Positions 4,942-28,324 of a stretch of DNA of 64,000 bases are shown here, piece by piece. A program made the position numbers and the translations under genes. The stretch is from Nitrospirota bacterium. Lineage in GTDB: Bacteria > Nitrospirota > Thermodesulfovibrionia > Thermodesulfovibrionales > UBA6898. The DNA lies in NCBI GenBank assembly GCA_021825365.1, contig JAKAHR010000009.1, positions 1-64,000 on the forward strand. Direction: 5' to 3'. The notes beneath the pieces are model-generated. The model saw only the letters and a program-made list of their open reading frames with translations. It did not search any database and was not told the DNA's origin. Within the stretch, counting starts at the first letter, position 1. The number at the start of each line of letters is the position of its first letter.

Positions 4942-6117
4942 CTACACGTATTGGCCTGCCGTATATCCCGATGCCCATGCCCAGTGCAGGTTATACCCGC
5001 CGAGTTGACCGGTGACGTCCATCACCTCGCCGGCAAAAAAGAGGCCCTGAACCTTCTTCGATTCCATCGTCTTTGAAGAGAGTTCCGCTGTGTCGATGCC
5101 GCCGCGGGTGACCTCGGCCCTGGTGTATCCCTCCGTATCGGCCGGTCTGATTATCCATCTTTGGAGTTTCTCCGCGATCGCCTTTAATTCCCTGTGGCTG
5201 TACAGGGCAAGCGGCTTCGAGGGTGCAAACCGGCTGCACCAGAGGAAAGAGAACCTCCTGGGGAAGAACCGGCAGAGGAAGTTCTGCAACTCCATCCTGC
5301 TGCCGTGGTGGTCGATAAAGAGCGCGTATGCGTCGTGTCCTGGAAGCAGGTTGATCGCCAGCTCTTCGCCCTGGTTCCAGTACGAGGATATCTGGAGCGC
5401 CGCCGGGCCGCTCAAACCATGGTGCGTAAAGAGCACCGGTCCCTGGAACCTCACCTTACCGCAGGATAACTCCGCTGGTATCGAAACGCCGCTGAGGGGA
5501 GAAAGCATCTCAGCCTCGGCACGCCTGAAGGAAAGGGGCACGAGGGCAGGTTTCAGCGGAGTGATCGACAGGCCGAACTGCCGGGCGATCCTGAAGCCTA
5601 GATCAGATGCGCCGAGCGCCGGATAGGAGAGACCGCCTGTTGCGACGAGGAGGGAGGCGGAAGAATAGGCAGCCGAATCCGTTCTCACCATGAACCTTCC
5701 CCTCTTTTCTATGGTTGTTATACGGCTCTTCAATCGCAGCTCAGCCCCCGCCTCCCCGCATTCCGCGGTGAGCATGCGGATGACCTGGTCTGATGACCCA
5801 TTGCAAAAGAGCTGGCCCGATTCCTTTTCATGGTATCGTATGCCGTGGCGCTCGATCCGGGATATGAAATCAGCAGGGGAAAAACGGGCGAGAGCCGACT
5901 TGCAGAAGTGAGGGTTTTTCGAGATATAGTGATCCGGCCGTACGCCGAGGTTGGTGAAGTTGCACCTGCCGCCTCCCGACACGCGCACCTTGCGGCCTAC
6001 CTGGTCGTTGTGATCGAGGATCAGGACAGCGCGTCCCCTCCTGCCCGCCTCGATCCCGGCCATCAGTCCCGCTGCGCCTGCTCCGATGATGATAACGTCT
6101 TTTTCTGTCGGTTTCAT
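4942..6117 (-). CDS. BaiN/YhiN-type NAD(P)/FAD-dependent oxidoreductase
   Basis: The protein is 391 residues. An N-terminal FAD-binding Rossmann motif (IIIGAGAAGLMAG) is followed by the family hallmark VSGGGRCNFTN near residues 47-57. The C-terminal FAGEVMDVTGQLGGYN is the second FAD contact typical of HI0933-like flavoproteins. These soluble flavoenzymes are widespread but mostly uncharacterised; one relative (BaiN) reduces bile-acid intermediates in gut clostridia, which is unlikely to be the role here. It is directly coupled to maf downstream. About 160 bases separate it from argC upstream, with no gene in that gap. Confidence 0.85.
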   Translation of the reverse strand: MKPTEKDVIIIGAGAAGLMAGIEAGRRGRAVLILDHNDQVGRKVRVSGGGRCNFTNLGVRPDHYISKNPHFCKSALARFSPADFISRIERHGIRYHEKESGQLFCNGSSDQVIRMLTAECGEAGAELRLKSRITTIEKRGRFMVRTDSAAYSSASLLVATGGLSYPALGASDLGFRIARQFGLSITPLKPALVPLSFRRAEAEMLSPLSGVSIPAELSCGKVRFQGPVLFTHHGLSGPAALQISSYWNQGEELAINLLPGHDAYALFIDHHGSRMELQNFLCRFFPRRFSFLWCSRFAPSKPLALYSHRELKAIAEKLQRWIIRPADTEGYTRAEVTRGGIDTAELSSKTMESKKVQGLFFAGEVMDVTGQLGGYNLHWAWASGYTAGQYV

Positions 6118-6276
6118 GACAAGTTGTGTTGTACCCTGCTGCCGCCGTACTTCTCACTCGGATGCGGCAGTCCGACTCTACGTGAAGGACCGCGCAGGAC
6201 AGGCCCTTTTTCTGCACACCCGACCTCTTCAGTCTGCACCGCGAAGGTGTGCAAAACACTCCGGCCGACGGGATCT

Positions 6277-7317
6277 TTACGGGAAGAGGGAGATGGAGCG
6301 GAGCCCCTCGGTCTCCTCAAATCCCATCATGATATTCATGTTGTGGACAGCCTGGCCCGAGGCCCCCTTGACGAGGTTGTCTATCGCCGAGACGATGATG
6401 AGGGTATTCGTCCTGGTATTGAGCTTCAGCCCTATCTCGCAGAAATTTGAGCCGCGCACATTCTTGATGTTCGGATACACGCCCGGCGGCAGGAGCCTGA
6501 TAAAGGGTTCTTTCCTGTATGCTGCATGATATGCGGCGAAGACCTTGTCCTGTGAGATCGTCTTTGACAGCTTCGCGTAGATGGTCGTGAGGATGCCCCT
6601 GTCAGCAGGCAGCAGATGGGGCGTGAAATCGACCGTCACCTTCTCCCCGGCGAGGCAGGATATCTCCTGCTCGATCTCGGGCGTATGGCGGTGGGTCCCG
6701 ATCCCGTAAGCCTTGAACCCCTCGTTCACCTCGCAGTAGGCGACGGCAACGTCCGCCTTCCTTCCTGCCCCGGTCGTGCCTGATTTGGAGTCAATAATGA
6801 TTGACCTGGCGTCGACGAGCCTGTTCCTGACCGCCGGAAGGAGTCCGAGAATCGCGCTTGTCGGATAACAGCCGGGGTTGGCTATGATGCGCGCCTTCCT
6901 GATCCGAGAGCGGTAGATCTCCGGCAACCCGTAGACAGCCTTCTGCAGGGTAGCAGCGAACTGATGCGGGGTGCCGTACCACGATTCGTAGACGCTGACA
7001 TCGGATATGCGATAGTCTGCCGAGAGGTCGATGACATGCTTCTTCCTGCTGAAGAAGTAGTGCACCGCCTCCTGGGACGCGCCGTGGGGAAGGGCGAGGA
7101 AGAAGAGATCAGCCTTGGAGAGAAGGCGCTCCTTTTCCATCGGCTCAAAGGTCATGCCGCCGTATGAGTGAAGATGCGGGAAGAGGTCGCACAACCGCCT
7201 GCCTGCCGATTTCTCGGACGTGACCGCGGTCACCTCCACCCTAGGGTGGCCGGACAATATGCGGAGCAGTTCAATGCCCGTATATCCGCTGCCCCCGCAA
7301 ATCGCTGCCTTCAGCAT
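6277..7317 (-). CDS. argC: N-acetyl-gamma-glutamyl-phosphate reductase
   Basis: ArgC reduces N-acetyl-glutamyl phosphate to the semialdehyde with NADPH, the third step of arginine synthesis. The N-terminal nucleotide-binding motif is GGSGYTGIELL. The catalytic Cys lies in ANPGCYPT, and the later GTHRHTPEIEQ holds the conserved His. The start chosen is the ATG at 7317 (346 residues), preceded by GGAGAAGGA; an upstream TTG would add only 8 residues. Although it follows rplM-rpsI, a strong terminator (7353-7385) separates them, so argC must use read-through or a promoter I could not identify. Confidence 0.93.
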   Translation of the reverse strand: MLKAAICGGSGYTGIELLRILSGHPRVEVTAVTSEKSAGRRLCDLFPHLHSYGGMTFEPMEKERLLSKADLFFLALPHGASQEAVHYFFSRKKHVIDLSADYRISDVSVYESWYGTPHQFAATLQKAVYGLPEIYRSRIRKARIIANPGCYPTSAILGLLPAVRNRLVDARSIIIDSKSGTTGAGRKADVAVAYCEVNEGFKAYGIGTHRHTPEIEQEISCLAGEKVTVDFTPHLLPADRGILTTIYAKLSKTISQDKVFAAYHAAYRKEPFIRLLPPGVYPNIKNVRGSNFCEIGLKLNTRTNTLIIVSAIDNLVKGASGQAVHNMNIMMGFEETEGLRSISLFP

Positions 7318-24227: not shown

Positions 24228-24277
24228 ACGGCAACAGGAGGCGATGCCGCGGGAAGCAGGTGATCCCCGGCGAGGAG

Positions 24278-24706
24278 TCAGTGAGTCCGGGCCCTCTCCA
24301 GAAGGTTGTCCCTGACCAGGCCGAAGAAAGAACCGCCTGCTGACTGATAAAACCAGCCGAGATGAAACAGGCACTTGGCGCAGATCGCAAAGGACCAGGC
24401 AAAGCCGGGGAACCAGGTGAACTCCTGAGACGATTTTCCCACGGGCAAGCAGCCGCCTGCCCGGGAGAAGCACCGGATAATGAAGGTAATGCCCGCGGGA
24501 TTGATACAGGTATGCTGATGCTGCCCCTGCACAGCGATGGTGTCGGCAATAGCTGTTACCGGGTGGCCGCAGTTTCTGCAGAGGATGTGATCATCTTCTG
24601 AAAGTTCAAGAAGATCGTCTTCGCTGGCCCTGGCAGCCGGATGTGATTTATCCCTCTGACCTTTTGCCTCACGTGGCGGGGGAAAGCCGGTGTTTTGCAC
24701 AGGCAT
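24278..24706 (-). CDS. Cereblon-type CULT-domain protein (bacterial thalidomide-pocket protein)
   Basis: The 142-residue product is a stand-alone CULT domain, the ligand-binding domain of eukaryotic cereblon. Zinc ligands are the pairs Cys43-Cys46 and Cys109-Cys112. The three pocket tryptophans are present in TWFPGFAW (Trp98, Trp104) and HLGW (Trp118), with a following FFGLVRDNLL that matches cereblon FWGLTR. Known bacterial members bind thalidomide and cyclic-imide or uridine-like ligands; the natural role is unsettled. It lies 13 bases downstream of ppnP, a nucleoside phosphorylase gene, and is probably in one transcript with it. A TATAAT overlaps its ATG, so an internal GTG start (24700) is possible. 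Confidence 0.85.
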   Translation of the reverse strand: MPVQNTGFPPPREAKGQRDKSHPAARASEDDLLELSEDDHILCRNCGHPVTAIADTIAVQGQHQHTCINPAGITFIIRCFSRAGGCLPVGKSSQEFTWFPGFAWSFAICAKCLFHLGWFYQSAGGSFFGLVRDNLLERARTH

Positions 24707-24719
24707 TATAAGACGCTGA

Positions 24720-25034
24720 TCACTTGATAAATGAACAGCAATAGTCGGTCAGGCTGCGAACCTTCAGCCCGAACGTGGAGTTTGCCGCCACCTCGAAGGA
24801 CTGGCCGCCCCTGAAGGCCTTCCATGTGTTCTCCCCGGGGAGCAGGACATCCAGTTCTCCGGATATGATCTCCATTACTTCCTTGTCTGCTGTCGTGAAC
24901 TCGAATTCGCCCGGAAGCATGATCCCGAGGGTCTTCCTAGAGCCGTCCTCGAAGACAACGGTCCGGCTTGTTACCTTGCCGTCAAAGTAGATATTGGCTT
25001 TCTTCCGTACCGTCACTCCCCTGAATTCGTCCAT
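24720..25034 (-). CDS. ppnP: Pyrimidine/purine nucleoside phosphorylase
   Basis: The 104-residue product is a small cupin of the YaiE/PpnP (DUF1255) family, which cleaves nucleosides with phosphate to free base and ribose-1-phosphate. The family pattern is visible in [14 protein letters not shown], then [10 protein letters not shown] and the closing [11 protein letters not shown]. The ATG at 25034 is chosen because GAGGTG lies 6 bases upstream. It is followed at once by the CULT-domain gene, suggesting a nucleoside- or base-related context for that protein. Confidence 0.9.
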
Positions 25035-25097
25035 GCGGGTCACCTCAAAAAATGGTTTTGATGCTACTCTATCAGACTCTGCTGCCCGCTTTCAAGC

Positions 25098-25349: not shown

Positions 25350-26180
25350 ATGAAGTATATTCCGGCAAGAGGGAAAATGATGGCTGCTGTCCTGGTGGCT
25401 GCTGTCCTTCTGGCGGGGGTTGGTTCTGCCGGCTATTTCCGCTCTGAAGGCGAAAAGAGAGGTGTTCACAAGGTGTTGCTGAAGACAAATGAAATGAATC
25501 ATGCGCCTGTTCCTCCCCTGGATGTCACGGCTCCGGCAAGGACGGATACGGCGACCTTTGGCCTTGGTTGATTCTGGGGGCCTGACTCCCGGTTCGGGAG
25601 TCTGTCCGGTGTGGTCCGGACGAGAGTGGGATATGCCGGAGGGACGAAGAAGGACCCGACGTACCGCAGCCTGGGGGATCATACAGAAACCCTGCAGATC
25701 GATTACGACCCTTCCGTGATATCCTTTGAAGGGCTGCTTGACATCTTCTGGAAGAGCCATGACCCGACGTCCCGGCCATGGTCAAGACAGTACCGGTCGA
25801 TCATCTTGTATCACAATGAGGAGCAGAAGAGGCTTGCCATGGAATCCAGGGACAGACAGGCAGTTCTGCAGAAGAAACCGATAACAACCGAGATCCTCCC
25901 GTTCTCCGCCTTTTACCTGGCTGAAGATTACCACCAGAAGTATCGTCTTCAGCAGGAAGAGGAGATCATGAGGGAGTTTGAGTCGATGTACCCCATATGT
26001 AAAGGCGTCACGGACTCAACCGCCGCTGCCCGGGTAAATGGGTTTCTGGGCGGGTATGGGTCGCCTGATGACCTGAAAAAGGAGATTGGCCTCCTCGGAC
26101 TCTCTGAACAGGGAAAGAAGAGGCTGATACAGATCCTGTCATCGGGCCGGCCGGCCTTCCGCGCCTGTCCGCTGAAGTAG
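25350..26180 (+). CDS. msrA: Peptide-methionine (S)-S-oxide reductase with selenocysteine (TGA) at the catalytic position
   Basis: MsrA reduces methionine-S-sulfoxide in proteins using a catalytic Cys in GCFWG. Here the codon at that exact place is TGA (25569-25571). The frame continues without shift: [18 protein letters not shown], then [21 protein letters not shown] and FWKSHDPT, and late family motifs EDYHQKYRL and [10 protein letters not shown]. This fits a selenoprotein reading G-Sec-FWG, 276 residues from ATG 25350 (or from 25377/25380, which have AAGAGGG before them). The N-terminus has a hydrophobic helix, suggesting export or membrane anchoring. A Cys near the C-terminus (FRACPLK) could resolve the selenenyl intermediate. 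A hairpin follows the TGA. The selenocysteine insertion machinery (selA, selB, selC) is not in the window. Confidence 0.85.
25569..25621 (+). promoter_or_regulatory. Candidate bacterial SECIS element at the in-frame TGA of msrA
   Basis: Twelve bases after the TGA, GACTCCC (25584-25590) pairs with GGGAGTC (25596-25602) around the loop GGTTC, or as 8 bp with loop GTT. The loop starts 19 bases after the TGA and contains G-G-U, as in known bacterial SECIS loops. A second hairpin (GTCCGG with CCGGAC, 25604-25621) follows. The hairpin lies inside the coding sequence, as bacterial SelB-binding elements do. Confidence 0.6.
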
Positions 26181-26232: not shown

Positions 26233-26556
26233 CTACGGTTTTGTCTCTCTTGACTTCAGCACATAGACAAAAAGGTCCTTGCACATCTGGAGCCGTTTGA
26301 GATACACCTTCTTCTGCGATTCGTCAAGCTTCTCGATCTGCGGCTTCAGCCTGTCGCATCTCTCCGAGAGGCTCTTGAGTTCTTCAGCCGGCAGCGTCAT
26401 CGCGTCCTGCGTCTTGCCGCATATCTCGTCAAACTCCTTGCGCCATTCATCCTGCGCGGAGAGCGCCGACGGAATGTAGACATACATGCCGAGGAAGAAA
26501 AGCAGCACGGAAAGGACAGTCGTCACCAGCAACGCGCGTCGCTTCATCATAATCAT
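26233..26556 (-). CDS. Small membrane-anchored helical protein, hypothetical, coupled to a cytochrome gene
   Basis: The 107-residue product has one N-terminal hydrophobic helix (about residues 8-30), then a charged helical domain with three Cys residues that form no haem motif. The ATG at 26556 overlaps the stop of the upstream multihaem cytochrome gene (ATGA), so translation is coupled. The domain probably lies in the periplasm. It may help assemble or anchor the cytochromes, but I do not recognise a family. Confidence 0.6.
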   Translation of the reverse strand: MIMMKRRALLVTTVLSVLLFFLGMYVYIPSALSAQDEWRKEFDEICGKTQDAMTLPAEELKSLSERCDRLKPQIEKLDESQKKVYLKRLQMCKDLFVYVLKSRETKP

Positions 26557-27332
26557 AATTTGTTCCCCATTCCCGGATGGCACCGTTCGCAGTCGTTGAT
26601 CGGAAAGGCCACATTCATATGACAGACGCCGCAGAATTGGCCCTGCACAATATAATCCATTGAGAAGTGCTTGGTTGTCTTCATCTTGATATTGAAGATA
26701 TCAGGGTGGCAGTTGTTGCAGTCGAGCCACCGCGTATGCGCCCTGTGCGGAAAAACGGCGGGAGGGATGTTCAGCATCTCCGCCTCGAGGAGCAGTTTCT
26801 TGCTGAAATTGATGTCTCCCGAAGGCTTGACGGTCAGGAAATTGCGGGGCTTGATCAACTTCTTTTCTATCGCAACCGACCAGTCCCTCTTATTGCCGAA
26901 TTGGGTCCTCGGCAGGTGACCCAGCCTGTTGAAATTCTCCTTGCCATAACTCTTGTCGCCGTTATGGCACTTCTGGCAATTTCCCTCGTCATGGCCGAAG
27001 ACGACGGACCCGTCATGGCAGCCCGCAGCTCCGCAGTAGCGGCCGGACTTGTTCGCCTCTTCCGTTATTTCGGTTGTATTCACCTTCATATTGAATTCCA
27101 GTTCGAAATGGCAAACCCTGCAGGTATGCCTGCGGCGATGGAGCCAGTGCGAAAAGGTGGCTGCCTTTACACCGTTCTTTTCAGAGGTCCTGTTAATAAG
27201 GATATTGCCGTATTCCTCCGGGGGGACGGGGGGAGGATAAAACCATCCCTCCGCCCCCTCCAGGAGGAAGAAGACGAACAGAAGCGCCGGCAGTGCAGCC
27301 TTCCGTATCACTGGACCGGTTTTGTGTGGCAT
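26553..27332 (-). CDS. Multihaem c-type cytochrome (five CXXCH and one CX4CH)
   Basis: The product is about 259 residues with an N-terminal export signal. Haem motifs in order are CRVCH, CGAAGCH, CQKCH, CNNCH, CGVCH and CERCH. The second has four residues between the Cys, as in some cytochromes c3. The arrangement is like cytochrome c7/c3 (class III) proteins, with extra His for bis-His ligation. It should carry electrons in the periplasm. It is a paralogue of the next gene upstream, sharing the order of motifs and the HWIHR/HWLHR and FPLLDCQRCH/FPINDCERCH segments, so it arose by tandem duplication. The start at 27332 overlaps the upstream stop. Confidence 0.85.
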   Translation of the reverse strand: MPHKTGPVIRKAALPALLFVFFLLEGAEGWFYPPPVPPEEYGNILINRTSEKNGVKAATFSHWLHRRRHTCRVCHFELEFNMKVNTTEITEEANKSGRYCGAAGCHDGSVVFGHDEGNCQKCHNGDKSYGKENFNRLGHLPRTQFGNKRDWSVAIEKKLIKPRNFLTVKPSGDINFSKKLLLEAEMLNIPPAVFPHRAHTRWLDCNNCHPDIFNIKMKTTKHFSMDYIVQGQFCGVCHMNVAFPINDCERCHPGMGNKL

Positions 27333-28108
27333 CTCTGACAATCAAGCAGAGGGAAGGCAACGGTGCTGTGGCAGACGCCGCAGTATTTGCCGTCGAATAT
27401 CTCGACCATCGAATACTTGGTCGCTCCCTTTTTGACGCCGACAAAGATCTCGGGATGGCAGAGTTCGCACCCGTTCCATACGGTATGTTTCTTGTGGGAG
27501 AATATGATTTCCGGCATCCCGGCCACCTTCCCGGAAAGTGCAAAATCCTTCTGGGCCGTAAGGGATTGTCTCTTGATCGATACCCCTTCGAGAAAGTCGA
27601 TTATCTTGATCTTTCCGTCTTCTTCGGCCTTCTCCCAGTTGATGCCGTTTCCGAAGCGTTCCTTCGGAAGATCACGGGTGAATTTGATGAAATCATACTC
27701 TTTCCGGACATTCTTGCCATACGAGTGGCAGCGGTCGCACTGTTTCGCGCTATCGGCGACGGCGAGCGTGGAACAGGATGTGAAGACCTTTTCCCCGTCA
27801 AAGGAGCGGGTGCCGTTGTGGCATGATCCGCAATAGTAACCGCTCATGTTGTCAGCTGCCTTGATCCCTGTTCCGCCGGCCTTCATCGCAAAAGCGAGAT
27901 CAACATGGCATAGACGGCAGCTGAACTTGGCCCGGTGAATCCAGTGGTCGAATACAACGGGTGCGAGACCTTTCTTTTCCGAAAAATTGTTCATGACGAC
28001 CCGGCCGTAATCAGCGGGAAGGGGCCTCTTCTTCTTGATGCCGGTCTGGGCCATCGTGACACCCGCTCCGACCATGACGAGCAGCACTACTACAAGGATC
28101 TTCCGCAT
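27308..28108 (-). CDS. Multihaem c-type cytochrome (six CXXCH)
   Basis: The product is 266 residues from the ATG at 28108, with a signal peptide (MRKILVVVLLVMVGAGVTMAQ). Six haem motifs are present: CRLCH, CGSCH, CDRCH, CELCH, CGVCH and CQRCH. The fold is likely of the cytochrome c7/c3 kind. It leads a three-gene operon with a second multihaem cytochrome and a small membrane-anchored protein, and has a good promoter upstream. The operon suggests periplasmic or outer-surface electron transfer in respiration with metals, sulfur compounds or nitrogen oxides. The partner cannot be told. Confidence 0.87.
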   Translation of the reverse strand: MRKILVVVLLVMVGAGVTMAQTGIKKKRPLPADYGRVVMNNFSEKKGLAPVVFDHWIHRAKFSCRLCHVDLAFAMKAGGTGIKAADNMSGYYCGSCHNGTRSFDGEKVFTSCSTLAVADSAKQCDRCHSYGKNVRKEYDFIKFTRDLPKERFGNGINWEKAEEDGKIKIIDFLEGVSIKRQSLTAQKDFALSGKVAGMPEIIFSHKKHTVWNGCELCHPEIFVGVKKGATKYSMVEIFDGKYCGVCHSTVAFPLLDCQRCHTKPVQ

Positions 28109-28169
28109 TGTGTTCCCTCCTGTTTCGTGGTGCAGACGATGAATGTAAAATAACCCTATTTCCACGAGA

Positions 28170-28198
28170 AGTGTAGTGCTTTGTACATGAAAGGTCAA
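28170..28198 (-). promoter_or_regulatory. Promoter of the multihaem cytochrome operon
   Basis: On the minus strand TTGACC (28198-28193), 17 bases, then TACACT (28175-28170). It lies 61 bases before the cytochrome ATG, which has an AGGAGGG ribosome site. Confidence 0.6.
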
Positions 28199-28324
28199 TA
28201 AAAAAGGCATGAAAACGTCCGTTTCAATACAAGAAGGAGGCCGATAGTGGGCGGCTGCTTAAACATGTGATAAGATTATTCTGTAGACGGGTGGATGGTA
28301 TCCCTTACAGGAAAGGCGTCTGAA

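Follow-up and report, generated by a model that had tools for sequence, protein, structure and literature searches.

An intact thalidomide-type pocket in a stand-alone bacterial CULT protein, and a nucleoside phosphorylase neighbour that probably carries no information on the ligand

Genes at the CULT locus

The window analysed in this study, a stretch of 64,000 nucleotides, carries on its minus strand a gene (24278..24706, ATG start) for a stand-alone CULT protein of 142 amino acids. The protein comprises a disordered N-terminus (approximately residues 1-38) and a CULT domain (approximately residues 39-140), and nothing else within its length scores above a family cut-off. No Lon-like or DDB1-binding region precedes the CULT domain, as evident by a Pfam search that returned no Lon match and by the total of only 142 residues. 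Likewise, no secretion signal is evident in this protein, whose N-terminus is polar and predicted to be disordered, and its location is probably cytoplasmic.

Immediately upstream on the same strand lies ppnP (24720..25043), which encodes a pyrimidine/purine nucleoside phosphorylase (PF06865, 135.5 bits vs a cut-off of 25) and probably starts at the ATG at 25034. The two genes are separated by 13 bases (24707-24719), precisely the spacing that the first-pass annotation had reported. They may share a transcript, because weak promoter-like (25066..25095) and terminator-like (24231..24250) sites, both on the minus strand, flank the pair upstream of ppnP and downstream of the CULT gene, respectively; these sites are at or near chance level, with one promoter-like site found vs 1.0 expected. 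Downstream of the CULT gene, asnS is encoded on the opposite strand.

Several other features were noted in this part of the window. The gene upstream of ppnP on the opposite strand, msrA (25350-26180, plus strand), appears to encode a selenoprotein. A TGA codon at 25569-25571, followed by a strong hairpin (GACUCCC..GGGAGUC, -20 kcal/mol), falls within the catalytic motif GLG-TGA-FWG, and reading the TGA as selenocysteine raises the Pfam PMSR score to 146.5 bits, compared with 114.6 otherwise. A truncated DNA alkylation repair fragment (PF08713; 25125-25325, plus strand) runs in frame into the msrA start and looks like a gene remnant. Two neighbouring multihaem cytochrome c7-type proteins are encoded at 26553-27341 and 27308-28210 on the minus strand.

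Assignment to the CULT family

A phmmer search of solved structures returned MsCI4 (7ps9, 4v2y) as the top match, with E values of 4.7e-24 to 5.4e-24. Human cereblon is matched by sequence alone at approximately 1e-8 in the same kind of search, and the vertebrate cereblons rank after MsCI4 among all solved structures (approximately 1e-10 to 1e-7). The first-pass annotation had proposed checking the protein against the CULT/Yippee-Mis18 profile; the Pfam model (PF03226) gives 17.6 bits, below its cut-off of 26.6, whereas the CULT-specific match is strong. A low score with the general model is to be expected, because that model was built on the cousins of CULT and does not count CULT as a member; Yippee and Mis18 proteins have a beta-tent zinc fold related to that of CULT (PMC4287342). 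Comparisons specific to CULT, rather than the general profile, are decisive for family membership.

Structure prediction leads to the same assignment. The AlphaFold model has pLDDT values above 90 over approximately residues 40-135 and low confidence over residues 1-38. When placed on the MsCI4-thalidomide complex (5amh), a comparison with the Magnetospirillum homologue that had likewise been proposed beforehand, the model superposes with an rmsd of 1.0 Å and a Foldseek TM-score of 0.92 by target. VIA-align gives Z scores of 19.4-19.6 with MsCI4 and 16.6-17.6 with human cereblon, and the structural matches include human CRBN-DDB1 with the native cyclic-imide substrate GLUL-cN (9nr3, Z approximately 17). 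Judged from these sequence matches and the predicted fold, 24278..24706 encodes a genuine stand-alone CULT protein of the MsCI4 kind, and the matches are not due to chance. The original identification as a stand-alone bacterial CULT protein is therefore borne out by the phmmer match and by a model fit of approximately 1 Å.

Stand-alone CULT proteins of bacteria were described in 2015, mainly from delta-proteobacteria, with a few from alpha- and gamma-proteobacteria and one from a spirochete (PMC4287342). The protein in the window is another member of this family with a clean pocket, and its architecture brings nothing new.

Conservation of the zinc site and the tryptophan cage

The presence of two zinc-binding cysteine pairs and of Trp98, Trp104 and Trp118, noted when the sequence was first read, was confirmed by alignment with MsCI4. 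The four zinc cysteines of that protein correspond to C43, C46, C109 and C112 here, and its W79, W85 and W99, a numbering that agrees with PMC8900816, correspond to W98, W104 and W118. We examined conservation in an alignment of 30 sequences (29 CULTs from two phyla plus MsCI4), and computed motif coordinates, all on the minus strand, from the ORF start at 24706. The first zinc motif, C43-R-N-C46 (24569..24580), is identical in all 30 sequences, and the second, C109-A-K-C112 (24371..24382), and the third cage tryptophan, W118 (24353..24355), are each present in 30/30. The other two cage tryptophans lie within WFPGFAW (24395..24415), where W98 is present in 29/30 sequences and W104 in 30/30. 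The hairpin motif N69-P70-A71-G72 (24491..24502) is similarly well preserved (N69 and G72 in 30/30, P70 in 29/30); an NPxG motif at this hairpin orders the first tryptophan (PMC4449219).

Mean column identity across these 30 sequences is only 36%. Nevertheless, 12 columns show no variation and a further 13 are conserved to at least 90%, and the zinc, cage and hairpin residues are among them. Such conservation across divergent copies indicates that the pocket is under selection. Taken together, the alignment and the model show a predicted zinc-pinned beta-tent with a tri-tryptophan cage that should be able to hold a cyclic imide.

A single relative departs from this pattern at the first cage position. 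The CULT gene of G008 (locus L020, 4986-5408, minus strand), a genome of the bacterial family to which the window belongs, no longer encodes the first cage tryptophan: a W to L change gives EYTLF where others have E.TWF, making this protein a natural variant of the pocket.

Distribution of CULT genes

Profile searches identified CULT genes in 22 of the 230 genomes of the window's class and in 8 of 297 genomes sampled from the phylum of L002, a Holophagae locus that was the one CULT locus found in a scan of genome contigs; five further CULT genomes belong to the class of L002. The resulting set of 35 genomes (22 + 8 + 5) spans two phyla, with Proteobacteria, Myxococcota and Spirochaetes lying outside it. 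For the window's phylum as a whole, 10 credible cases were found among 295 genomes; an eleventh match (G172, E 2.6e-4), which is fragmentary and carries two stops, was left out of the count. No CULT gene was found in plasmids or phages, and a search of viral contigs with a single-protein query found none. The deep branches of the CULT tree are without resolution.

A distribution this patchy, together with neighbours that vary by lineage and the loss of a cage tryptophan in G008, might be what is left by a degenerating or neutral relic that was spread by gene transfer and has no fixed role. We regard this explanation as very unlikely, since the zinc and cage residues are kept in 29-30 of the 30 divergent copies, which speaks for sustained selection.

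The ppnP gene as a pointer to the ligand

The first-pass annotation had proposed that the ppnP neighbour hints at a ligand from nucleoside or base metabolism. Taken further, the ligand would be a nucleoside or base such as uridine or uracil, and a ppnP-CULT operon would make and sense, or buffer, such compounds. The shared strand and the close spacing are consistent with this arrangement, as are the promoter-like and terminator-like sites, although these are near chance level, and the chemistry is not foreign to the family: MsCI4 binds uridine with low micromolar affinity and does not bind thymidine or cytidine, although the authors of that work found no biological context for uridine (PMC4449219).

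The genome survey argues against such a partnership. The annotation had itself set uniqueness of the linkage to one genome as the outcome that counts against its proposal, and among the 35 CULT genomes, ppnP occurs anywhere in only three and adjoins the CULT gene only in the genome of the window. In the other two (G311 and G537), the CULT and ppnP genes are on separate contigs (C9 and C251, and C60 and C24, respectively). Across the window's phylum, ppnP is present in 41 of 295 genomes and coincides with CULT only in the window's genome; this amounts to 1/10 CULT-positive vs 40/285 CULT-negative genomes, a comparison that reveals no association (Fisher p = 1.0). These 40 sampled genomes thus have ppnP with no detected CULT gene. 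In the ppnP relatives from the same family that were examined, no CULT gene is present and other genes come after ppnP.

We therefore rejected ppnP as a functional partner of CULT, there being neither conserved linkage among the 35 CULT genomes of the two phyla surveyed nor an excess of co-occurrence in the window's phylum, and its adjacency probably says nothing about the CULT ligand. The position of the CULT gene behind ppnP is better viewed as a lineage-specific accident, because CULT adjoins unrelated genes in other lineages. By analogy, a uridine-like ligand is still chemically possible because MsCI4 binds uridine, and ppnP adds nothing to this argument; overall, we consider a nucleoside or base ligand with a ppnP-based role to be improbable. 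Of the overall reading offered at the outset, the CULT protein with its intact thalidomide-type pocket stands, whereas the use of ppnP as a pointer to the ligand does not.

Neighbours of CULT genes in other genomes

Clustering of all neighbouring ORFs yielded only lineage-bound pairs, and no general partner gene of CULT emerged in the two phyla surveyed. The CULT gene is found beside ftsY in two genomes of one genus (G032, G054), beside coaE in three genomes of one genus, and, in six genomes that belong to a single family, beside an MltA gene of opposite orientation. In single genomes it lies beside aspS (G185), hflK-hflC (G329, with an 11-base gap), a gene for a PpiC/SurA-type isomerase (G044) or lolA (G647). 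In two genomes of the class Holophagae, a gene for an M20-family peptidase/deacylase overlaps the CULT end by 8 bases (genomes G308 and G606; L002 6302-7297 and L098 4350-5348, both plus strand), which suggests translational coupling. The genes ftsY, coaE and aspS and the M20 gene of G606 were named from translation or clustering, and the other neighbours by Pfam. From this survey, CULT is a gene that behaves as free-standing and settles by different genes in each lineage.

Some of these neighbours (hflC, the peptidyl-prolyl isomerase, Hsp20, pcm, and msrA near the gene in the window) could be gathered under a theme of proteostasis. We make no such claim, because the category was picked after the genes had been seen.

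A candidate partner chosen in advance

C-terminal cyclic imides are read by human cereblon, and arise from damage or from the action of PCMT1 on C-terminal asparagine (PMC11974815; also PMC13001092). Because PCMT1 makes imides that cereblon reads, its bacterial homologue pcm was picked as a candidate partner before the neighbourhoods were inspected. In G054, pcm lies on the same strand as the CULT gene and starts 4 bases past the stop codon of the latter, in the order ftsY-CULT-pcm (locus L019, minus strand; CULT 6304..5894, pcm 5889..5179, PCMT 226 bits). This adjacency occurs in 1 of 35 genomes and is not seen in G032, a congener of G054, and no pcm gene was found in the flanks examined at any other CULT locus. 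The chance of at least one pcm-CULT adjacency among 35 genomes is roughly 1.5-9%, and the pairing in G054 is suggestive as a weak lead to a shared role. Co-occurrence is uninformative in this case, because pcm is near-universal in the class (226/230 genomes). Furthermore, the N-terminus of the G054 Pcm is hydrophobic and signal-like, so this protein may be exported, which would complicate a joint role with CULT.

A broader proposal can be built on this lead, namely that bacterial stand-alone CULTs read C-terminal cyclic imides produced by damage or by protein-isoaspartate methyltransferase, such that Pcm and CULT would form a ubiquitin-free pair for damage recognition. We consider this proposal speculative and unlikely on balance. 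If it is true, bacteria possess a counterpart to the PCMT1-cereblon branch of protein quality control in humans.

Proposed ligand and role

MsCI4 binds glutarimides as well as uridine. The reading we tentatively favour, while stopping short of calling it probable, is that the protein in the window is a binder of cyclic imides of the MsCI4 type, and that its targets are most likely damaged protein C-termini that end in a cyclic imide. In the cell, these would most likely be C-terminal aspartimide or glutarimide ends of the kind produced by protein breakage or cyclisation at Asn or Gln. The CULT protein would then mark, shield or hand over the damaged proteins or peptides, and would do so without ubiquitin machinery. 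No downstream effector, such as a protease or an adaptor, was found linked to CULT.

The pocket might instead serve a different small cyclic imide, lactam or hydantoin-like metabolite, such as dihydrouracil, hydantoins, or free glutarimide or succinimide, with the protein acting as a sensor or sink. MsCI4 crystals hold valerolactam (5ohb), a dihydrouracil compound (9gjq) and glutarimides, whereas no catabolic, transport or regulatory gene is recurrently linked to CULT, and we view a small-metabolite ligand as possible but doubtful.

The interest of the protein in the window is the question of the bacterial CULT ligand. Targeted protein degradation makes more use of the cereblon pocket than of any other handle, and the survey strips away one tempting clue, the ppnP neighbour, while leaving a concrete lead in the CULT-pcm pair.

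Comparison with known CULT proteins

The closest known system is MsCI4 (MGR_0879, ‘cereblon isoform 4’ of Magnetospirillum gryphiswaldense), which is likewise a stand-alone CULT protein and shares the zinc site, the NPxG motif and the cage. Further residues also correspond, with F56, E76, F77 and Y101 of MsCI4 represented by F75, E95, F96 and Y120 in the window protein. The two proteins differ in that identity is approximately 38-43% and Y83 of MsCI4 is replaced by F102. The thalidomide-binding domain of human cereblon has the fold, the zinc site and the three tryptophans in common with the window protein, at an identity of 25-28%. In contrast, human cereblon also has Lon-like and DDB1-binding domains that the window protein lacks, and a cullin-ubiquitin system is not to be expected in a bacterium.
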